A stretch of DNA of 32,304 nucleotides from Anaerolinea sp. (GCA_020722415.1 DYKV01000011.1:1-32304), one strand, 5' to 3'. Positions 6,405 to 32,304 are shown, numbered from the stretch's first letter. Notes: generated by a model from the sequence alone, not told the origin. Numbers and translations are program-made.

Positions 6405-8534
6405 TTATTTCAAGATGACAATCAAATAGCCTAAGATAAAAACAACACCAATAAACACAGCCATAGCATAATTACGAACATAGCCGGTCTGTACGCGGCG
6501 TAACTGCCCAGAGCTCCAATTGGTCAATCGCGCTAATCCATTAGCGGTGGCATCAATGATCCCTAAGTCAATTTGCACAGCCAATAACTTCGTCCCTTTT
6601 TTGAAAGTGCCAGCGATAACCGTATCATGGAACCAATCATGCCAAAAACGCCAATCTACGACATCGGCAAGCCATTGAGACAGGGCTTGATAAGGGTGGA
6701 TGACCAGAACGCCATACAATTCATCTACCCAATACTTATGGTTTAGCACGGAGAAGACCGGACCTAAAGCGCTTTCTAACGGATCTTTGTATGCCTGCGG
6801 CTCACCTCTGAGGGACTTTTGGACCAAGATATAATATAACCAATATCCTATTCCTATCCCTAACAACGCCAGTAAGGTTGACATTCCTGCCACTTGTAAT
6901 GAGAATGGTGGCATTTCTTCTCCAAGTACAGTGAGGGGTTTATATTCGATAGTATGTTCCAGCCAATGCCCAAATGTTTCAATATGGGGCAGGTTTAAAA
7001 ATCCACCAAATCCGGCTAATGCCGCTAAAACGATCAATGGGATAGTCATCAGTTGTGGGCTTTCACTGGCGTGAGCAACAGCATCTGTGCGTGGCTCCCC
7101 AAAGAACACCATGAAGATCTGCCGAGCCATATAGAAAGCTGTAAAGAAAGCCGCTACAGCAAGTATCCAATAAATGCGTTTATCAATATTGCTGGCATTG
7201 AGCAGAATCTCATCCTTCGACCAAAATCCAGCCAATGGCACGATCCCAGCCAAAGCCAACGCCCCGATTAAATACACCCAAAAAGTGGTCGGCATACGGG
7301 TGCGTAAACCACCCATATTGCGCATGTCTTGCGGGTCAAGATGGTGATCTTCCTGTAAGCCACCTTTGTGGTGCAACTGCGCATGTAATCCGCGTTCAAC
7401 TCCTTGGATCACCGACCCAGCTGAAAGGAACAATAGCGCCTTAAAAAATGCATGGGTCACTAAATGAAACATTCCAGCAGTAAAAGCGCCCATACCCACT
7501 GCGGTTACCATAAAACCTAGTTGACTGATAGTCGAATAGGCTAGCACTTTTTTAATGTCGAACTGCCCTACAGCAATTGTTGCCGCAAAAAGGGCAGTCA
7601 GTGCCCCAACCCAACTAACCAGCGTACGGGCTTCTGGCATAACAGCATAAAATGGATAAGAGCGGGCAATCAAATAAACACCTGCGGTCACCATCGTGGC
7701 AGCATGGATTAATGCCGAAACCGGTGTCGGACCAGCCATAGCGTCCGGCAGCCAAACATACAACGGTAATTGAGCTGATTTACCGGTCACCCCTAACAAC
7801 ATGAAAACAGTGATAAACAGGATGCCATAAGGTAAAACTGTAGCCACTTGTTTTATCTGGGGAAAAATTTCATCGAATTCGAAGCTATGAAATAATCCGA
7901 AGATCGTGAATGCAGCGAGGAGGAAACCAAAATCGCCAATTCGGTTGGTGATGAAAGCCTTTTTACCAGCCAAGGCGTTGCCGATTCCGTCTTTCCCCTT
8001 ATCATACCAGAACCCGATCAACAAGTATGAACAAAGGCCTACACCTTCCCAACCAACAAAAAGCATCAGATAATTATCAGCGCTCACCAATATCATCATT
8101 GCTAGGATAAACAAGTTAAAAAAGACAAAAAAGCGCTGATAGCGGCTTGGATCGCCGTTTATGCGAACATCATCATGCATATAAGCAATAGCATAAACGT
8201 GGATAAGGAAACCCACACCCGAAACCACTAACATCATCGTCACCGATAAAGTATCCACCTTAATCCCCCAATGCAGATTGAGGTTAGCTATGGTGATCCA
8301 ATCTGCTAAACGGATAACCGTTCCTTCTGGATGAATACCTAAAGAGACAAGTTGTAAAAAAGAGATAATAAAGGTTAATCCAACCGCACCACTGGCAACC
8401 CATCCAATTTGTTTCTCCTGCATCCGGCTGCCAAAGGCAATGTTAATCAGCAATCCAAGTAATGGGAAGATTAAGATCAGCGGTACAAGCGCAAAAAATT
8501 GAAATCCAGTCGCTCCAACGTCACTCAGTAGCAT
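6405..8534 (-). CDS. nuoL: NADH-quinone oxidoreductase subunit L
   Basis: 709 aa; FVGWEGVGLCSYLLIGFW and WLPDAMAGPTPVSALIHAATMVTAGVYL signatures. Confidence 0.97.
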   Translation of the reverse strand: MLLSDVGATGFQFFALVPLILIFPLLGLLINIAFGSRMQEKQIGWVASGAVGLTFIISFLQLVSLGIHPEGTVIRLADWITIANLNLHWGIKVDTLSVTMMLVVSGVGFLIHVYAIAYMHDDVRINGDPSRYQRFFVFFNLFILAMMILVSADNYLMLFVGWEGVGLCSYLLIGFWYDKGKDGIGNALAGKKAFITNRIGDFGFLLAAFTIFGLFHSFEFDEIFPQIKQVATVLPYGILFITVFMLLGVTGKSAQLPLYVWLPDAMAGPTPVSALIHAATMVTAGVYLIARSYPFYAVMPEARTLVSWVGALTALFAATIAVGQFDIKKVLAYSTISQLGFMVTAVGMGAFTAGMFHLVTHAFFKALLFLSAGSVIQGVERGLHAQLHHKGGLQEDHHLDPQDMRNMGGLRTRMPTTFWVYLIGALALAGIVPLAGFWSKDEILLNASNIDKRIYWILAVAAFFTAFYMARQIFMVFFGEPRTDAVAHASESPQLMTIPLIVLAALAGFGGFLNLPHIETFGHWLEHTIEYKPLTVLGEEMPPFSLQVAGMSTLLALLGIGIGYWLYYILVQKSLRGEPQAYKDPLESALGPVFSVLNHKYWVDELYGVLVIHPYQALSQWLADVVDWRFWHDWFHDTVIAGTFKKGTKLLAVQIDLGIIDATANGLARLTNWSSGQLRRVQTGYVRNYAMAVFIGVVFILGYLIVILK

Positions 8535-8548
8535 AAGCTTCTCCGCTT

Positions 8549-8851
8549 TTAGCCTTTCATAGAATTCATTTGATCAATATCAATGCTCTGTTTCGTTTCA
8601 AAAATAGCCACAATCAGAGCCAACCCCACTGCCACTTCCGCAGCCGCCACCGCCATGACAAAAAAAACAAATATCTGGCCGTTTATGGTAGCATGCATAC
8701 GGGCAAATGAGACGAATGCCAAATTCGCTGCATTCAACATCAATTCGACAGACATGAAGATGATAATGGCATTCCGGCGAATAAGCACTCCCATGGCTCC
8801 CATGGAAAAGAGAATTGCTGATAAAGTCAAGTAGTAATATTCGGGTAACAA
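8549..8851 (-). CDS. nuoK: NADH-quinone oxidoreductase subunit K (start revised to TTG at 8851)
   Basis: ORF track starts at GTG 8866, but GTGAGGAGG there looks like the Shine-Dalgarno; starting at TTG gives [27 protein letters not shown], typical of NuoK. Confidence 0.9.
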
Positions 8852-8871
8852 AATAAACCTCCTCACATCAT

Positions 8872-9381
8872 TTAACGCTTCATTTTCTTCTTGGTCAGTA
8901 CAATTGCCCCGATCATCGCTACCAGTAACAATAGCGATATGATTTCAAAGGGCAATACATACTTGTCAAAAAGAATTTCTCCCACTTGCCCGGGATTACC
9001 GAATCCGTCAATGATTTCAATGGGTTGGGGAAAGGAATGTAGATGAGTGAAAATCAAGTATAGCGATTCAAGAATAAGCAAAGCCCCCAATCCCATACCA
9101 AGCGGTCGCATCCACCAACTAGCTGGTGTTCGGCCGGTTTGTTCAGCTCCTAAAAGCATAATCACAAAAATGAAGAGGACCATGATCGCGCCCGCATAGA
9201 CCGTAATCTGAGTTAAGGCAATAAAAGGAGCGCCTAGAATTAAATAATAAACAGCAATTGCGGAGAAATTGATGATCAGGAACAAAGCTGAGTAAATTGC
9301 ATTACGACTAAACAGCATTCCAGCTGCCGAAAGAATTGCCACAACTGCTAACCCAAGAAAAAGAATGATATCTATACTCAT
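8872..9381 (-). CDS. nuoJ: NADH-quinone oxidoreductase subunit J
   Basis: 169 aa, TM-rich, [23 protein letters not shown] signature. Confidence 0.95.
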
Positions 9382-9405
9382 CTACACCTCATTTGGCAAG
9401 CGATA

Positions 9406-9912
9406 TTAATCAGACGGGTCTTTCATCACTGGCACTGAACGAGTATAAACCCCGCTAGGAGTTCGTTGTGGGGTTGGCTGACCCCCAGGTGGAACGGGAT
9501 CGAGCAACATCTCTTTGGTATAAATTGCCTGGCGGCGGTCGGTAAAAGAAAGCTCATAATTATCACCGAGAACAATCGCCTCTGTAGGACAAGCGTCTTG
9601 ACAATATCCACAAAAGATACAGCGCAACATATTGATTTCATATACCCGAGCATAGCGTTCCCCTGGTGAATATCTTTCTTCGTCTGTGTTTTCGGCTGCC
9701 TCGACAAAGATTGCATCAGCCGGGCAAGCTGCCGCACATAAAGAACATCCAATGCACTTTTCTAGGCCATTTTCATAACGTTGTAAATGATGGCGCCCTT
9801 TGAAACGAGTTCGGACGCGGCGCTTCTCCTCCGGATACTGAATCGTAACCGGTTTTTCAAACATCATCTTTAAAGTCGTGGCTAAGCCACGCGCTAAATC
9901 ATCGAGCATCAT
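9406..9912 (-). CDS. nuoI: NADH-quinone oxidoreductase subunit I (2x[4Fe-4S])
   Basis: CIGCSLCAAACP and CIFCGYCQDACP ferredoxin motifs; ATGA overlap with nuoH. Confidence 0.97.
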   Translation of the reverse strand: MMLDDLARGLATTLKMMFEKPVTIQYPEEKRRVRTRFKGRHHLQRYENGLEKCIGCSLCAAACPADAIFVEAAENTDEERYSPGERYARVYEINMLRCIFCGYCQDACPTEAIVLGDNYELSFTDRRQAIYTKEMLLDPVPPGGQPTPQRTPSGVYTRSVPVMKDPSD

Positions 9913-23753: not shown

Positions 23754-26700
23754 CTAGAATCCTTCTAATCGCGACAGATCTGCCACACCGTTCGCCAAGG
23801 CACGAATGCTTTGCAATAGCCCCAAACGGTTTTGGCGCTGTTGCGCATCTTCTGTCATCACTAACACCTCTTCAAAAAAGCGATTAATGGAAGGGATCAT
23901 AGGCAAGAAAGCGTTGAGGAAATCATCCACAGAACCGGTTTGTCGGGATTGCTTTTCTGCCTGGCAAACAGCTTCATAAAGAGCTTTTTCAGCCGGTAAC
24001 GTGAACAATGCTGGCTGAATCGGATATCTTTCTGCTATATCTCGGGTTATGCGCACACAGCGAGCGTAAGCGGGAAGGATTTCATGCCAATCTGAACGAT
24101 TAACCCATTCGGTTAATTGGCTAACTGCTTGTGCAGCAGCAGCGGGGTTATCACCTTGTTCAGCCAGCACTGCATCCACCACATCATAAGGATAACCTTT
24201 CTCCTGCAGCCAATTTCGCAACCGCTCAACGATAAAATCGCGGCAGGCACGCAGATGGTCATCGGTGGCTGGAATAGGCAAGAATTGAGCAGTTTCTTGC
24301 AACGCCTCCCGAAGGTTAAAATCTAGATTCCAATTCACTAGATTTTGAACTAACCCGAGTCCAGCCCGTCGTTGGGCGAAAGGGTCTTTATTTCCGCTTG
24401 GCGCCAGGCCAGCTGCGAACAACCCAATTAAGGTATCTAATCGGTCAGCAATCCCTACAGCCAAACCGGGAAGGGTCTTCGGGCTGAGATCTCCGGCGAA
24501 GCGGGGTAGGTAATGTTCCATAATTGCTTCCGCTACGGAAGGCTCTTCTCCACTAGATAAAGCATAATACTTCCCCATGATTCCTTGTAAGGAAGTCATC
24601 TCGACGACCATTTTGGTTGCTAGATCTGCCTTACATAAGTGAGCTGCCCGCTCTGCTGCATTGCGTTCCTTCTCATCTAACCGACACCACTTCGCAACCG
24701 CAAAGATCAATTTTTCTAACCGATGGGTTTTATCCAGCATTGACCCTAACTTTTGCTGAAAGGTTAACGTGCTCAATTTTGGAAGGTAACTTTCTAATGG
24801 TTGTTTAATATCTTCATGCACAAAATAGGCTGCATCCGCAAAACGAGCTCGGATGACATGTTCGTTTCCATCCACAATCGTTTCCAGCCCTTCCCAACTG
24901 ACTTCCTGAAGGGATGGTTTGTTGGCAATGGTGATGAAGTAGGGTTGCAGGCGCCCTTGCTGATAGACCGGGAAATAGCGCTGGTGTTTCTTCATCACCG
25001 AAATCAATACTTCAGGGGGCAAATCCAAATAAATTGCGTCAAAACTGCCCAGTAAAGCAGTTGGCGCTTCAACTAAATTTGTTACCTCGGCTAATAGTGC
25101 ACCATCTTCGAGCACTTCTCCGTTTACTTTTTCTGCTTGCTGAATAACTTGATCCCAGATAGCCCGTTTGCGTTCCTGAGGATCTAAGATGATTCCTTGT
25201 TGAGCAAGGAAATTAAAAAAATCCTCAACAGAACCGACCCGATATTCTTGCGGCAACAAGAAACGTAACCCCCGCGTTACCGAACCAGAAGGAATATCCG
25301 CATATTGGAAGGATAAATGCTGATTTCCATAAAGCGCTAACAGCCAACGAATTGGGCGCGAAAAGGCTACATTGCTGGCGTTCCAGCGCATGGATTTATC
25401 AAAGTGTAATGATGCAATAAAACCTGGCAAGGAAGTTGCTAATACTTGGGCTGCCGATTTCCCCTTTTCCTTAATCACAACGCTGACATAATCCCCACCA
25501 TCCAGGTTCCGAATTTGCAAATCGTTTACTGTCAAACCTTTGCTGCGAGCAAAACCTTGTGCGGCCGGCGTTGGGCTCCCATCCGCTAGAAAAGCCTTGG
25601 CTGCCGGCGGACCTTTTACAACGATTTCGCTATCCGCTTGAAAAGGAGCGACATTTTCCACATAGACCACCAGGCGGCGCGGCGTTCCCCAGATATGAAC
25701 CGTTCCATAGGATAATCTTAATTGATTTAACCATTCGGGTGTGTGTGTCCGCAATTGTTCCAGCGCTGCATCTAGATCGGCAACTGGGATTTCCTCTGTG
25801 CCAATCTCCAACAAGAACGGCGCCGAGTTTCCTGGCAACACTTCAGAAGCTGGTTTTTCTTCCTTGACTGCCTTATCAGAATGGGCAGCCACTAGACCAG
25901 GACGCCCGAGCCATGGAAAACCAAGCCGCTGGCGTTGTTCGACATAAGCGTGTGCCACCCGCCGACTCAAATCGCGCATGCGCCCGAAAAATGCCTGTCT
26001 TTCGGTTACCCCTATTGCTCCGCGAGTATCCAAAACATTAAAAGTATGCGAGCATTTCAGCACATAATCATGGGCGGGGAGAACCAATCCTTGCTCCAGG
26101 CAAATATTCGCTTCCGCCTCGAACAGATCATACATTTGGCGCAAGCTAGCCACATCGGCGATCTCAAAATAATACTTGCTGTGTTCCTGCTCGGCTTGTA
26201 AGTTTACATCCCCATCAGTGTAGATGTGATTCCAACGGATTTCACGAAAACTGCTCACCCGCTGCAGGGCAATCGCAATCCGTTCTAAACCATAGGTAAT
26301 TTCTACAGAAACCGGATCGAGAACTTGCCCCCCCGCTTGTTGAAAATAAGTGAACTGGGTGATTTCTTGTCCATCTAGCCATACCTCCCATCCTAATCCC
26401 CAGGCTCCTAATGCCGGTGATTCCCAATCATCTTCCACAAAACGGATATCATGGCGGCGGGTATCAATTCCCAACGCTTCGAGAGACTGTAAATAGATCT
26501 CTTGGGGGTTACCCGGATCTGGTTTGAGGATGACTTGAAACTGATAATGCATTTGCATCCGATTTGGGTTCTCGCCATAACGCCCATCGTCTGGGCGAAT
26601 GGAAGGCTCCACATACGCCACATTCCATGGTTCTGGTCCTAGAACGCGCAGTGCAGTGGCTGGATTCATCGTGCCTGCCCCAACTTGAGTGTAGTAAGGC

Positions 26701-26780
26701 TGCCAAATAAGGCACCCTTTCTCAGCCCAAAAATCCTGTAATTTCATGATGATCGTTTGAAAATTGATCGCTTCGCTCAT
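23754..26780 (-). CDS. glyQS: Glycyl-tRNA synthetase, fused alpha-beta single chain (start revised to ATG at 26780)
   Basis: GlyQ signatures ([74 protein letters not shown]) followed in frame by GlyS ([21 protein letters not shown]...; C-terminal anticodon-binding region). Confidence 0.97.
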
Positions 26781-26916
26781 AGTAATTGAAGGCTCATCTC
26801 TCCACAAAAATAGATCTTTAGCTTATTAATTCCCATGCGATCGTAGAAGACGGTGAGTACCCGGCTTCGACCGATGCAAGAATACAGTAGAACTCAGATT
26901 CTAACCCAAAATATCC

Positions 26917-28332
26917 TCAAAAGCGAAACCAGCCAAAACTTAGCCCCAAGGCAAATATGGCAACTATCAAGACAACCACGCTCAAACCAACCAGCAACCA
27001 AAAGGCAGCTCGTTTCAAGGTGTCAACCGGTTTTACCCCACCCACTTTTCCATTATGAGCATTTACATACAGTTGATAATTTTTCCCGCGATAGTGGTAA
27101 CTCCCCACATAGAAAGGCAAGAGCACCAGCTTATAGGTCAATCCGCTCCAATTGGTTTCTCCAGATTGCAGGTTGCGCCTTTCTGTTCCTACCTGTACAC
27201 GGGAAGGGAGAGCTTGCCGAAGACGCCTAACAACAATCTCGCGCGCATCCAGCGAAGCATCTGCCAGCGGATGGTCATAAGTCAATACATTCCAATTCGC
27301 CAAATAAGCAGGGTCATAGGCAACCACAGCTTTTAAGTCAAAGGGCTGGGTTTGCGAAATTTCGGCGCAATTCAGCGCTTTTACGCCAGGCACTACAACA
27401 TCATCGAAGATTTCGAACTCAACCCCTCTTTCGACTTCCCAATAAGGGGTGTCTGAATTGCTGCGATTTACTTCGCAAACCCAATTCATTTGCAAAATAC
27501 CGTCGAAGGTCCAAAACGGATAATAAACCGGACGCAGGGCAGAAGGTTTTGCCATTTTTTTCAAGTCATCAGGAATAAACAATCCCCGCCCCAGCCACTC
27601 ACCAACCTGCTGGCTAGCCTCCTGCACCGTCAGCCGCGGAGGCAGCAGGACATTCGGAGATAACATCTCTACGGTCTCTTCCGATTCGATCATCTGGGAT
27701 GAGCCACAATGCGGACAAACCAGCGCTCTCTCCATAACCGCTAAAACCGATATAGCGCCGCACTGGTTACAGCAAAACCGATGTTGGGCTTCTGCCCATA
27801 CATGCCCCCGTGTGGTGGGTAAGACAAAATCCAGCGTCAGCTCTGCTTCATCTGCCACTGACACTGTAGACATGGCTTGTTCATGACCGCAATATCCACA
27901 TACCAGCCTTTGACGAGCAACATCCAGACTTAGCCTCCCGCCGCACTGCTCACAGAGAAAAACCTTCTCTGCCATTGCCTCAAGCGGCGCTTGTGGTTGG
28001 CGAGGCACTACCTCTTGCCCTTCTGCCAGCAAGCGGGAAGTATCCAATTTTCCGGATAAAATTGCCAGGCCACGGCGAGCCGCGCCATTATTCGGGTCTG
28101 CAGCCAGCGCATATTCTAAATAATCGCGTTGCTCTTCCGGCTTATCGGTAGTGGCAGAAAGCCACAACCAGGGTTGGGGGTCGGTGGGTTTGATCTCTGC
28201 TGCCTTCTGCAATAGCGTGCGGGCTTGTTCCAAATCGCCAGCCTTGACCGCTCCAATGCCAGCTGATAACACCTGGCGATAATGATCCTCATCCGAAAAG
28301 TTGCGTTTGGTGAATTGAGCAGGGAATGACAT
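26917..28332 (-). CDS. TPR / double zinc-ribbon / C-terminal TM protein of unknown function (start revised to ATG at 28332)
   Basis: N-terminal TPR-like repeats (AVKAGDLEQARTLLQKAAEIKPTDPQPWLWL), CEQCGG...CGYCG and CNQCG...CPHCG ribbons, C-terminal hydrophobic helix. Confidence 0.8.
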   Translation of the reverse strand: MSFPAQFTKRNFSDEDHYRQVLSAGIGAVKAGDLEQARTLLQKAAEIKPTDPQPWLWLSATTDKPEEQRDYLEYALAADPNNGAARRGLAILSGKLDTSRLLAEGQEVVPRQPQAPLEAMAEKVFLCEQCGGRLSLDVARQRLVCGYCGHEQAMSTVSVADEAELTLDFVLPTTRGHVWAEAQHRFCCNQCGAISVLAVMERALVCPHCGSSQMIESEETVEMLSPNVLLPPRLTVQEASQQVGEWLGRGLFIPDDLKKMAKPSALRPVYYPFWTFDGILQMNWVCEVNRSNSDTPYWEVERGVEFEIFDDVVVPGVKALNCAEISQTQPFDLKAVVAYDPAYLANWNVLTYDHPLADASLDAREIVVRRLRQALPSRVQVGTERRNLQSGETNWSGLTYKLVLLPFYVGSYHYRGKNYQLYVNAHNGKVGGVKPVDTLKRAAFWLLVGLSVVVLIVAIFALGLSFGWFRF

Positions 28333-28339
28333 CCTATGT

Positions 28340-28368
28340 AGTTTAACCCGCTTGCAACAACTTGACAA
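28340..28368 (-). promoter_or_regulatory. Sigma70-type promoter TTGTCA-17-TAAACT for the TPR/zinc-ribbon gene
   Basis: Minus strand TTGTCA (28368-28363), 17-nt spacer, TAAACT (28345-28340); -10 ends 7 nt before the ATG at 28332. Confidence 0.65.
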
Positions 28369-28390
28369 GAAGAAATACCGGTCAAACATC

Positions 28391-28419
28391 TTGACTTTTA
28401 GAGGTTATTTCTATATACT
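28391..28419 (+). promoter_or_regulatory. Sigma70-type promoter TTGACT-17-TATACT for the ROK operon
   Basis: TTGACT 28391-28396, 17-nt spacer, TATACT 28414-28419. Confidence 0.85.
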
Positions 28420-28420
28420 T

Positions 28421-28451
28421 AACTTTGTAAGTACAATAAACTTACAAAGTT
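28421..28451. promoter_or_regulatory. Operator-like perfect 12-bp inverted repeat AACTTTGTAAGT-n7-ACTTACAAAGTT
   Basis: Arms 28421-28432 and 28440-28451 are exact reverse complements; starts 1 nt after the -10 box, covering the predicted TSS. Confidence 0.85.
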
Positions 28452-28475
28452 TCACTTTTTTTATTTCATCCGGTT

Positions 28476-29666
28476 ATGAAAAAAGCCACCCACCAACAAA
28501 CTAAAGAGCATAATCGCAACCTCGTGTTGAAGAACATCTTCGAGCGTGACCCTATCAGCCGCGCCGAGATTGCCCGCATCACCGGGCTGACCCGCGCCAC
28601 TGTCTCCGAAATCGTTGCCGAATTAATCGAAGAAGGGCTGGTCAAAGAGATTGGCACAGGGGAATCAATTGGAGGAAAGGCGCCGATCTTACTTGGTTTA
28701 GTGGCTGATTCCCGCTACCTAATTGGCTTATATCTGGGAGAAGATCAATTTTTTGGCTCGATCATTAACTTACGGGGCGAGATCAAAGACACAATTGAGA
28801 TGCCCATTAAAAACCAGAGCGGAGATCAAGCTCTCCAATCCGTCTATTCTATATTGGATTTACTTATTGCTAAGGACTGGAAACCAATTGTTGGAATTGG
28901 CATCGCCACTCCGGGTTTGGTTAATACCAAAAAAGGAATTGTCATCAACGCCGTCAACCTCGAATGGCAAGATTTGCCATTAGCAGAGTTGATCGAAATG
29001 CGCTACCACATTCCGATTTCCATTTTGAATGATAGTCAAGCAGCTGCAATTGGTGAATATGTTTACGGTGCAAAACATCCCTCCGAAAGTAATTTAGTAG
29101 TGATTAATGTCAAATATGGCATCGGGGCTGGCATATTAATCAATGGGTGCTTATATCAAGGGGATGGCGGAGGAGCAGGCGAGATTGGTCATGTGGTCGT
29201 TCAAGAACATGGTTCGCTTTGTCGGTGTGGGAAGGCCGGCTGTTTAGAGACCATCGCTAGCGCTCGGGCAATCGTGCGGCGGGCAATTTCTCTTATGCCA
29301 GAATATCCAGAATCCGAATTGGCTAAAAATCCGGAGAGTATCTCCATTGAATCACTCAAAACAGCCTGGCAAAAAAACGATCCTCTCGCTGAGAAAGTCA
29401 TCTCTGATGCAGCCTATTATTTGGGGCTCTCGATTGCCAACCTGGTGAGTGTGCTTAATATCCAGAGTATTGTACTCACTGGCGATATCACTTGCTTAGG
29501 AGAAAACTGGCTGAAAATGATCCATAATACGATGACCCAAGCAGCGCTTGAGCTACTCGCCTCCAATACAAAGCTCGAATTCGGGAAACTGGGTTTCAAA
29601 GCGTTTACCTTAGGCGCTTCTGCTCATATGCTACTTGGAGATTATCGCCTTTTATTTCTGAAATAA
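28476..29666 (+). CDS. ROK family transcriptional repressor (NagC/XylR type)
   Basis: 396 aa; N-terminal wHTH RDPISRAEIARITGLTRATVSEIVAELIEEGLV, ROK zinc motif CRCGKAGCLE, GIGIATPGLV. Confidence 0.95.
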   Translation: MKKATHQQTKEHNRNLVLKNIFERDPISRAEIARITGLTRATVSEIVAELIEEGLVKEIGTGESIGGKAPILLGLVADSRYLIGLYLGEDQFFGSIINLRGEIKDTIEMPIKNQSGDQALQSVYSILDLLIAKDWKPIVGIGIATPGLVNTKKGIVINAVNLEWQDLPLAELIEMRYHIPISILNDSQAAAIGEYVYGAKHPSESNLVVINVKYGIGAGILINGCLYQGDGGGAGEIGHVVVQEHGSLCRCGKAGCLETIASARAIVRRAISLMPEYPESELAKNPESISIESLKTAWQKNDPLAEKVISDAAYYLGLSIANLVSVLNIQSIVLTGDITCLGENWLKMIHNTMTQAALELLASNTKLEFGKLGFKAFTLGASAHMLLGDYRLLFLK

Positions 29667-29685
29667 CTGCTTCAGGAAAAACCAG

Positions 29686-31080
29686 ATGCCACATTCTTTA
29701 ACGTATTCCCCCCCAAGTGTTATCCCCCCCTTAGATGAGGATTTTCGCCCAATCAGTATCCCAAACCGCGAATTCTATCAGCATAATCAAGCGTTCGGAG
29801 TTCCACTAGTTCTCGGATTAGAACGAAATGATGGAGATTTTTCAAGATTTGAAACTTTCATTTATCCAGAAGATCACCCCGATTTTGGCAAGAATTATCC
29901 AATCATTGAAAGAATAGTCAAATTTCTTCTCTGGCAGCGGGGTGGATTTCGCCTTTATATTGGGGGAAGCAAACTAATCGGTGAGTATATAAGAGAAATG
30001 TATGCACCCCGCGGGAGAAGGGCTTTCGACTATCATTTCATGAGTGAACAGGTCTATGAAAAACCTTTCGAAGTAATCATCTGCAAAGCCAATCAAGTTC
30101 CACCCGCTCGTGAAAATGGAAAATTAATCGATCAAAATCTACAGGGTTGCCGAGTAGGCTTTGACCTAGGCGCCTCGGATCGCAAAGCCAGCGCTATCGT
30201 TGACGGAAAAGTCGTATACAGCGAGGAAGTTATTTGGGAACCAGGCAAACAGACTGACCCCGAATACCACTATCGTGAGATCATGGCAGCCATCAAAAGC
30301 GCCGCCTCGAAAATGCCCCGTCTGGATGCAATTGGCGGCAGCTCCGCCGGAATTTATATTAATAACCGGCCGATGGTTGCATCGCTATTTCGCAGCGTTC
30401 CAAAGGAAAAATCCGACCAGGTTAAAAACCTTTTCCTAAGGATCCAACGAGAATTTCAGGTGCCGCTGGTGGTGATTAATGACGGAGACGTTACCGCATT
30501 AGCCGGGGCTATGTCGATCGGGGATAATGCTATTCTTGGTATTGCTATGGGCTCTAGTGAGGCAGCCGGTTATATAAACCCAGATGGGCACATCATGGGA
30601 TGGTTAAATGAATTAGCGTTTGCACCAATTGACTATAACCCCAACGCACCGATCGAAGAATGGTCTGGTGACAAAGGTTGTGGCGCTTCCTATTTCTCAC
30701 AACAATGTGTTTTCCGTCTTGCCCCAAAAGCTGGAATATCTTTACCTCACGACGTAACGGATGCCGAAAAACTACTTTTCGTTCAAGAGATGCTCGAAAA
30801 GGGACACGAAGGCGCACAGAAAATATGGGAGACCATGGGTGTATATCTCGGTTACGGTGTAGCGCATTATGCAACTTTCTATAATTTGCGGCATGTCTTA
30901 ATCCTGGGACGCTGTACAATCGGAAAAGGAGGAAATCTAATTTTGGATAATGCCAAAATGGTCCTTGAAAAGGATTTTCCAGAATTAATGAGCCAAATTG
31001 AAATCCGATTGCCGGATGAAAGAAGCCGCCGTGTTGGTCAATCCATCGCTGCTGCATCTTTACCAATCATAGTGCATTGA
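29686..31080 (+). CDS. ROK/ASKHA-like kinase with ~150-aa N-terminal extension
   Basis: 464 aa; phosphate-1-like VGFDLGASDRKASAIVDGKVV, catalytic-Asp-like VVINDGDVTALAGAM, phosphate-2-like GIAMGSSEAAGYI. Confidence 0.75.
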   Translation: MPHSLTYSPPSVIPPLDEDFRPISIPNREFYQHNQAFGVPLVLGLERNDGDFSRFETFIYPEDHPDFGKNYPIIERIVKFLLWQRGGFRLYIGGSKLIGEYIREMYAPRGRRAFDYHFMSEQVYEKPFEVIICKANQVPPARENGKLIDQNLQGCRVGFDLGASDRKASAIVDGKVVYSEEVIWEPGKQTDPEYHYREIMAAIKSAASKMPRLDAIGGSSAGIYINNRPMVASLFRSVPKEKSDQVKNLFLRIQREFQVPLVVINDGDVTALAGAMSIGDNAILGIAMGSSEAAGYINPDGHIMGWLNELAFAPIDYNPNAPIEEWSGDKGCGASYFSQQCVFRLAPKAGISLPHDVTDAEKLLFVQEMLEKGHEGAQKIWETMGVYLGYGVAHYATFYNLRHVLILGRCTIGKGGNLILDNAKMVLEKDFPELMSQIEIRLPDERSRRVGQSIAAASLPIIVH

Positions 31081-31097
31081 TGGATCAAGGAGAGAAA

Positions 31098-31946
31098 ATG
31101 AAGTTTAATCAAAACACTGCTGAAATCTTTATCCCTGACGGACGAGAATCAAGCCAAGCATTAGCCAGGACAACGCATCTTTGTATTGCCGCCCATCAAG
31201 ATGATATTGAAATCATGGCAGCTCAACCGATTATTGAATGCTTTCAACAAAAGGATAAATGGTTTTGCGGAGTTGTGGTCACCGATGGACGCGGCTCGCC
31301 CCGCGATGATTTGTATAAAGATTATTCCGATGAAGAAATGCGTTACGTCAGAATGCAAGAACAACGTAAAGCTGCAATCATTGGGGAATATACAGCTCTG
31401 GTGATGCTTGATCATCCTAGTAAGACCGTAAAAGATCCCACCCTATCTAGCGTGATTGACGACCTTATCCAATTACTTCGGGCAACTCAACCCACTCATG
31501 TATACACCCATAACCTTGCCGATAAACACGATACCCATGTCGCAGTTGCCATACGAGTGATCCATGCAATCCGCCATTTACCGCCCAATGAACGCCCCCA
31601 AAAACTGATTGGTTGTGAGGTATGGCGGTCTTTAGATTGGGTAATCGACAGCGAAAAGATTTTAATGGATACCTCGCAGCACGAGAATCTCCAAAGCGCA
31701 CTACTAGGCGTTTACGATTCGCAGATTTGCGGGGGAAAACGTTACGATCTTGCCTCACTATGTCGCCGAAAAACCAATGCCACCTATTTAGAAACACACG
31801 GTGTGGATGTATTTCAAGCAGTGTCTTTTGGCATTGATATGACCCCGTTGATAACCAATGAGCAGCTGGATATCAGAGAATTCATTCAGGGTTACATAGA
31901 CCATTTCAGTCAAGATATTGCCGAACGCTTAACCCGAATTGGCTGA
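31098..31946 (+). CDS. PIG-L/LmbE family deacetylase (start revised to ATG at 31098)
   Basis: AHQDDIEI metal-binding motif, THNLADKHDTHVAV second motif; AAGGAG SD 5 nt before ATG. Confidence 0.9.
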   Translation: MKFNQNTAEIFIPDGRESSQALARTTHLCIAAHQDDIEIMAAQPIIECFQQKDKWFCGVVVTDGRGSPRDDLYKDYSDEEMRYVRMQEQRKAAIIGEYTALVMLDHPSKTVKDPTLSSVIDDLIQLLRATQPTHVYTHNLADKHDTHVAVAIRVIHAIRHLPPNERPQKLIGCEVWRSLDWVIDSEKILMDTSQHENLQSALLGVYDSQICGGKRYDLASLCRRKTNATYLETHGVDVFQAVSFGIDMTPLITNEQLDIREFIQGYIDHFSQDIAERLTRIG

Positions 31947-32056
31947 TGATGAAAGGATCATTTGAGAAAGGAGGTCACCGATCGCTATCACAATCAAGAA
32001 AGAAAAGATATAGTCTCATCACAAAGTCCAAATTAAAATTTAAAAGGAGAAGAATT

Positions 32057-32304
32057 ATGAGCAAAAAATTGTTAATCTTAATATCGGTTCTCGTAATTGC
32101 CGGGTTTATCTTAGGTGCTTGTGCGTCACCCACCAGCGTCGCAACCGAACCCCCGGTAGCTACAGAAGCAGCGGTTGTCACAGAAGCGCCGGCAGCTACG
32201 GAAGCAGCAGTAGCGACCGAAGCACCGGCTAAAGAGGTTACCCTTACTTTAGGATCATGGCGAGTAGATGATGTAGCCGCTTGGGAAGTTATTGATGCAG
32301 CTTT
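32057..32304 (+). CDS. Partial CDS: ABC-type solute (sugar)-binding lipoprotein, N-terminus
   Basis: Not in ORF track; AAGGAG SD then MSKKLLILISVLVIAGFILGACASPTSVATEPPVATEAAVVTEAPAATEAAVATEAPAKEVTLTLGSWRVDDVAAWEVIDAA; lipobox LGAC; open to the window end. Confidence 0.85.
   Translation, partial: MSKKLLILISVLVIAGFILGACASPTSVATEPPVATEAAVVTEAPAATEAAVATEAPAKEVTLTLGSWRVDDVAAWEVIDAA
32156..32227 (+). repeat. Two imperfect 36-bp repeats encoding [VA]ATEAAV[VA]TEAP
   Basis: 32156-32191 and 32192-32227, low-complexity linker after the lipobox. Confidence 0.7.

Follow-up and report, generated by a model that had tools for sequence, protein, structure and literature searches.

A conserved gene pair encoding a divergent ROK-fold kinase and a PIG-L-family deacetylase in a probable N-acetylglucosamine operon of Anaerolinea sp.

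Results

Gene content of the locus

We analyzed a stretch of 32,304 nucleotides from Anaerolinea sp. (GCA_020722415.1, DYKV01000011.1:1-32304; hereafter the window), which carries, from position 28,391 onwards, a promoter, a palindrome and four genes on the plus strand. These genes encode a repressor of the ROK family with a helix-turn-helix (HTH-ROK repressor), a divergent ROK-family kinase (hereafter the divergent kinase), a PIG-L/LmbE-family deacetylase (hereafter PIG-L) and a solute-binding lipoprotein (SBP). The kinase and deacetylase genes constitute a widespread and conserved pair, and the operon in which they lie probably serves the use of N-acetylglucosamine (GlcNAc). The original prediction had described four closely spaced genes behind a single promoter and operator; open reading frames (ORFs) were indeed present at those places, with intergenic gaps of 19, 17 and 110 nt, and both regulatory elements could be located. 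The features are as follows, in window coordinates unless the contig is named.

28391-28419, plus strand: sigma-70-type promoter, TTGACT-17 nt-TATACT, 10/12 consensus matches (consensus match only)
28421-28451, plus strand: putative operator, perfect inverted repeat AACTTTGTAAGT-N7-ACTTACAAAGTT with 12-bp arms, 31 bp
28476-29666, plus strand: HTH-ROK repressor, NagC-like, 396 aa (Pfam ROK, 192 bits)
29686-31080, plus strand: divergent kinase, 464 aa (ROK fold by AlphaFold2/Foldseek)
29686-30120: extra N-terminal domain of the divergent kinase, about residues 1-145, a separate alpha/beta domain (predicted local distance difference test score, pLDDT, 91)
31098-31946, plus strand: PIG-L, 282 aa (Pfam PIG-L)
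32057-32304 in the window, to C13:33232 on the contig, plus strand: family-1 SBP, ATG at 32057
33384-34340 and 34337-35188 on the contig: two CUT1 ATP-binding cassette (ABC) permeases
C13:35192-36373 (L004:7193-8374) on the contig: URO-D/MtaA-like protein (PF01208, 148 bits), end of the operon

The kinase and deacetylase genes form a conserved pair

Conservation was assessed at 99 loci with the divergent kinase, taken from 101 related genomes and from one genome per species in GTDB (a few overlap, e.g., L036/L061), with PIG-L and NagA detected by six-frame profile search. The same PIG-L subfamily was found downstream of the kinase gene, on the same strand and within 2.2 kb, at 79 of the 99 loci, and five others end at a contig edge. 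Kinase and PIG-L distances were correlated (r = 0.79 over 75 loci, compared with at most 0.18 in 2000 permutations). At least 575 relatives of the divergent kinase were confirmed, and the pair was seen in metagenome-assembled genomes (MAGs) whose labels place them in seven or more phyla, with titles naming Chloroflexota, Acidobacteriota, Armatimonadota, Hydrogenedentota, Thermotogota, Aminicenantes, Bacillota and one Bathyarchaeota bin; these labels are the submitters' own, and single bins may be contaminated. The four-gene set as a whole is also kept in relatives. No description of the pair was found in the literature searched (ROK with PIG-L, PIG-L or LmbE with NagA).

Verrucomicrobiota loci possess the kinase without this PIG-L subfamily. 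Where the usual protein is absent, a PIG-L-like protein of another subfamily may lie beside or near the kinase, as at L132:10408-11262 (by Pfam) and L050:7742-8389 (minus strand, by eye).

The second gene encodes a divergent protein with a ROK kinase fold

The original prediction had called the second gene product ROK-like but atypical, an apt label because its Pfam ROK score of 22.4 bits falls just under the 22.9 cut-off (24.1 bits when searched with its frame neighbours). Its AlphaFold2 model (pLDDT 90) has a kinase fold, with glucokinase 2qm1 as the best PDB match by Foldseek (E 5.9e-17) and glucokinase, N-acetylmannosamine (ManNAc) kinase and GlcNAc kinase as the nearest structures. When compared with NagK (7p7w), NanK (2yhy) and 2qm1, the protein shares this fold over about 325 columns and keeps the catalytic Asp (D266, in the N-D motif) and the sugar-contact Glu (E309), both of which are invariant in 22 diverse sequences; N265 is nearly so. 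By motif, D266 was equated with D105 of NagK and E309 with E154, the NagK sugar contacts being taken from published work (PMC10031466).

Unlike these enzymes, to which it is about 16-20% identical, the divergent kinase has no zinc Cys cluster, no His of GExGH and no Glu of GCxE, the CxCGxxGC and GExGH motifs being replaced by WSGDxGC(V)G and NELAF. Given the loss of the zinc motif, we call it a divergent ROK-fold protein rather than a typical member. It further differs in its extra N-terminal domain, which is kept in all the kinase sequences aligned and for which a fold search returned no PDB match at E <0.001 (best E 0.26, TM 0.28). We propose that the protein is most likely a GlcNAc kinase.

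The third gene encodes a PIG-L protein with an intact catalytic set

The third gene product scored 62 bits to Pfam PIG-L (cut-off 28.2). Its zinc and base residues H33, D35, D36, R69, H144 and H147 (HxDD...HxxH), whose roles are known from earlier work (PMC4101496), are invariant in 25 sequences, as are the basic residues K214, R223 and R224. A PDB sequence search with this protein alone gave no match, and a profile of the 25 sequences retrieved no PDB chain at E 0.001, so that no closeness to the solved Dac enzymes was found. It belongs to a different family from NagA, an amidohydrolase-fold protein (TIGR00221), and falls below the cut-off of that model.

The thiol deacetylases BshB2 and BshB1 are its nearest NCBIfam models, which might suggest a role in thiol biosynthesis (BshB/MshB) or glycolipid deacetylation, with PIG-L a mere neighbour of the sugar genes. 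This is very improbable, as the scores are only 31 and 26 bits versus cut-offs of 195 and 182 (TIGR04000/TIGR04001), the gene is tightly linked to those of a sugar kinase and an ABC importer, and PIG-L is exchanged with NagA, as described below.

NagA takes the place of PIG-L in one clade

At five loci lacking PIG-L (L090, L091, L094, L097 and L099), the next matching enzyme gene after the kinase encodes a NagA amidohydrolase, with 284-332 bits to TIGR00221 (cut-off 225.65). An SIS gene comes next after it in L090, L094 and L099; in L094, the kinase and NagA genes are about 1.2 kb apart, and a short, unrelated ORF intervenes. In a tree of the divergent kinase, these five loci and one truncated locus form one clade (Shimodaira-Hasegawa-like approximate likelihood ratio test 96) nested among loci with PIG-L. 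The exchange is most simply read as one displacement event, in which NagA ousted PIG-L, and this would imply that the two enzymes perform the same step of one pathway. Given that NagA acts on GlcNAc-6-phosphate, this compound is most likely the product of the divergent kinase and the substrate that PIG-L deacetylates. We accordingly propose, from the slot exchange only, that PIG-L most likely stands in for NagA.

Operons of relatives and the host genome

In Chloroflexota the operon runs repressor, divergent kinase, PIG-L, SBP, permease, permease, then a family 3 glycoside hydrolase (GH3) and/or an SIS protein. The cultured isolate Anaerolinea thermolimosa IMO-1 (L074) also possesses the operon. 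The GH3 gene is present in the operons of relatives at 12 loci and the SIS gene at 19, in line with the original prediction, which had pointed to glycoside hydrolase and nagB-type genes as a check. The GH3 proteins are nearest to the GH3 beta-N-acetylglucosaminidase 6k5j. The SIS proteins scored 223 bits to NagB-II, 67 to GlmD and 37 to AgaS, under the curated cut-off and with a similar score to the GlmS isomerase model; NagB-II being the nearest of the sugar-catabolic models, they are most likely glucosamine-6-phosphate deaminases of NagB-II type. GH20 or GH18 genes lie near the pair or the kinase in L045, L084 and L101, and the nearest solved relative of the SBP family member in L036 is the chitin-oligosaccharide-binding NagB2 (7eho).

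Among the 101 relatives, a strong SIS match was present in 16/18 genomes with the pair versus 37/83 others (Fisher p = 6e-4); among those without the pair, SIS was found in 22/33 with NagA versus 15/50 with neither. The host genome, which is 97% complete, has a NagB-II-like SIS gene on another contig (C596) and a GH3 gene elsewhere than in the operon, with no NagA, GH18 or GH20 detected. Relatives thus combine regulator, importer, deacetylase and deaminase, the set expected of a GlcNAc/chitobiose operon, while in the host the deaminase candidate lies on the other contig. In view of the lack of GH18 and GH20, a reading of the host as a chitin degrader was dropped; the organism probably scavenges GlcNAc or its oligomers.

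Some relatives carry other genes in these operons. DUF5107 proteins, some with TPR repeats, occur in L041, L044, L047, L051 and L088, lying between the repressor and kinase genes in L044, L047 and L088; they may represent a carbohydrate enzyme not yet recognised as such. At several loci (e.g., L036:13582-14550), the gene after SIS encodes an ATP-grasp protein resembling D-Ala-D-Ala ligase.

A putative operator follows the promoter

The promoter was the top-scoring plus-strand match within 28300-32304. The palindrome, which matched once in the window and in none of 100 shuffles, lies just downstream of the -10 hexamer, so that a bound repressor would block transcription. Many relatives have it 5' of their HTH-ROK gene, with a centre fixed at 7 nt. 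Genome scans allowing up to three mismatches detected it in 19/35 genomes, nearly always as a single site, whereas a reversed control pattern gave one match in each of four. A wider operator regulon was thereby rejected; with almost always a single site per genome, the repressor looks local and supplies no extra clue to the substrate. The best NCBIfam NagC model scored 220 bits on the repressor, far under its 650 cut-off. From these features, palindrome and repressor are predicted to be an autoregulated local switch. Thermotoga ChiR is likewise a local autoregulated switch, with chitobiose as effector (PMC3750489).

In one genome, a second, degenerate copy of the kinase gene with two TAG stops (G030:C43:9525-12887) accompanies a second operator at three mismatches, which suggests a duplicated operon undergoing decay.

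Continuation of the contig and neighbouring genes

The window end coincides exactly with a 100-N assembly gap inside the SBP gene (L004:4306-4405), and the contig extends to 36574. The original prediction had looked past 32304 for ABC permeases, and two come directly next. No ATPase gene was found within the 4.3 kb of contig beyond the window; CUT1 importers often rely on a shared ATPase encoded elsewhere. The URO-D protein that closes the operon is present in seven loci including the window's own, in some of which it precedes the SIS gene, and no corrinoid partner was seen for it. On the minus strand at 23754-26807, a 1017-aa ORF reads, by eye, as fused glycyl-tRNA synthetase alpha and beta chains.

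Discussion

We propose, with a probability of about 0.7, that the window carries a self-repressed operon for the uptake and catabolism of GlcNAc or its short oligomers. Uptake, deacetylation and phosphorylation of an N-acetyl sugar had been suggested by the original prediction, and gain support from the permeases, the conserved gene set and the GH3 and SIS genes of relatives. On the basis of gene content, the conserved pair, the intact catalytic residues, the exchange with NagA and the conserved operator, we infer the enzyme activities, the sugar and the order of steps as follows. A NagC/ChiR-type ROK repressor, bound to the 31-bp palindrome, would shut the promoter until sugar arrives, and the ABC importer, i.e., the SBP and two permeases, would take it up. 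The divergent kinase would convert GlcNAc to GlcNAc-6-phosphate, and PIG-L, in the stead of NagA, the usual enzyme of bacteria, would remove the acetyl group to give glucosamine-6-phosphate. A NagB-II/SIS deaminase, which many relatives encode within the operon and the host genome encodes elsewhere, would then yield fructose-6-phosphate.

Several observations weigh against this proposal. The divergent kinase lacks the zinc Cys cluster and the His and Glu noted above, and the exchange with NagA, being one event, counts as one natural experiment. NagA itself is also present in 4/18 pair genomes among the relatives, and a NagA-like protein in many other pair genomes; across the 101 relatives, NagA tends to be scarcer where the pair is present, as expected, but not significantly so (p = 0.19). 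The window's own operon has neither GH3 nor SIS, with the URO-D protein there instead. Outside Chloroflexota the pair is usually without transporter, GH3 or SIS, and two loci of Acidobacteriota have a nucleoside hydrolase gene (PF01156) immediately 3' of it (L114:3644-4657; L116, tblastn 8527-9489), so that the substrate could differ in those phyla.

With regard to the order of steps, phosphorylation is modestly favoured as the first. In the reverse order, which was that of the original prediction, PIG-L would deacetylate either free GlcNAc or, like the archaeal Dac, diacetylchitobiose at its non-reducing end, and the divergent kinase would be a glucosamine kinase. The gene content fits this equally well, the PIG-L catalytic set is intact, and the characterised sugar-catabolic PIG-L enzymes (Dac) use unphosphorylated GlcNAc2 and GlcNAc (PMC9779004). 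However, a true NagA, a GlcNAc-6-phosphate enzyme, replaces PIG-L beside the same kinase in the nested clade, where the reverse order would need a simultaneous change in kinase substrate, and the invariant K214, R223 and R224 of PIG-L would suit a phosphate. We therefore consider deacetylation first the less likely order; both steps of the original prediction are supported, probably in the opposite order.

It is less likely still that the substrate is another N-acetylated sugar, such as N-acetylgalactosamine, ManNAc, a sugar derived from N-acetylmuramic acid or a methylated amino sugar, with the GlcNAc enzymes of relatives showing only side-by-side use. The occurrence of the pair without GlcNAc genes in other phyla, its URO-D, Gfo/Idh/MocA, DUF5107 or nucleoside hydrolase neighbours, and an operon in the window that closes with a URO-D protein rather than a deaminase would all fit such a sugar. 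Against these stand an SIS protein nearest NagB-II and far from AgaS, a GH3 nearest beta-N-acetylglucosaminidases, and a displacing enzyme that is NagA itself.

The proposed GlcNAc operon has two known counterparts. The Thermotoga maritima chitobiose operon comprises the ROK regulator ChiR, the ChiEFG importer, CbsA and NagAB (PMC3750489). Relatives of the window similarly bring together a ROK repressor, an SBP with two permeases, a beta-N-acetylglucosaminidase, a deacetylase and a deaminase, unlike Thermotoga with the kinase-PIG-L pair in NagA's place; the window's own operon differs further in having no GH3 or SIS. The chitin route of Thermococcus and Pyrococcus, from which the original prediction had drawn Dac as a possible parallel, employs the PIG-L-family Dac, GlmA and GlmD (PMC9779004, PMC4101496). 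A PIG-L-family amino-sugar deacetylase and an SIS-type deaminase are common to both. However, no GH35 GlmA was seen here, the SIS proteins resemble NagB-II far more than GlmD, and the deacetylase is paired with a ROK-fold kinase, its likely substrate being GlcNAc-6-phosphate. By analogy, the Thermotoga operon with NagA exchanged appears the better parallel. We infer that the undescribed pair replaces NagK and NagA in a chitobiose/GlcNAc-type operon of a known general kind.

More tentatively, and at somewhat less than even odds, this PIG-L subfamily may be a new GlcNAc-6-phosphate deacetylase, unrelated in fold to NagA, which together with a new class of ROK kinase, marked by its extra N-terminal domain, would constitute a two-gene module leading from GlcNAc to glucosamine-6-phosphate, spread over numerous bacterial phyla and one or more MAGs labelled archaeal. 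Few sugars are commoner than GlcNAc in the debris of bacteria and fungi. Many genomes with the pair have no NagA, so that automated annotation would list them as non-users of this sugar. If the proposal is true, a widespread gene pair gains a function, and the rule that the divergent kinase together with PIG-L signifies amino-sugar use could be put to the test in uncultured members of Chloroflexota, Acidobacteriota, Armatimonadota and Hydrogenedentota.

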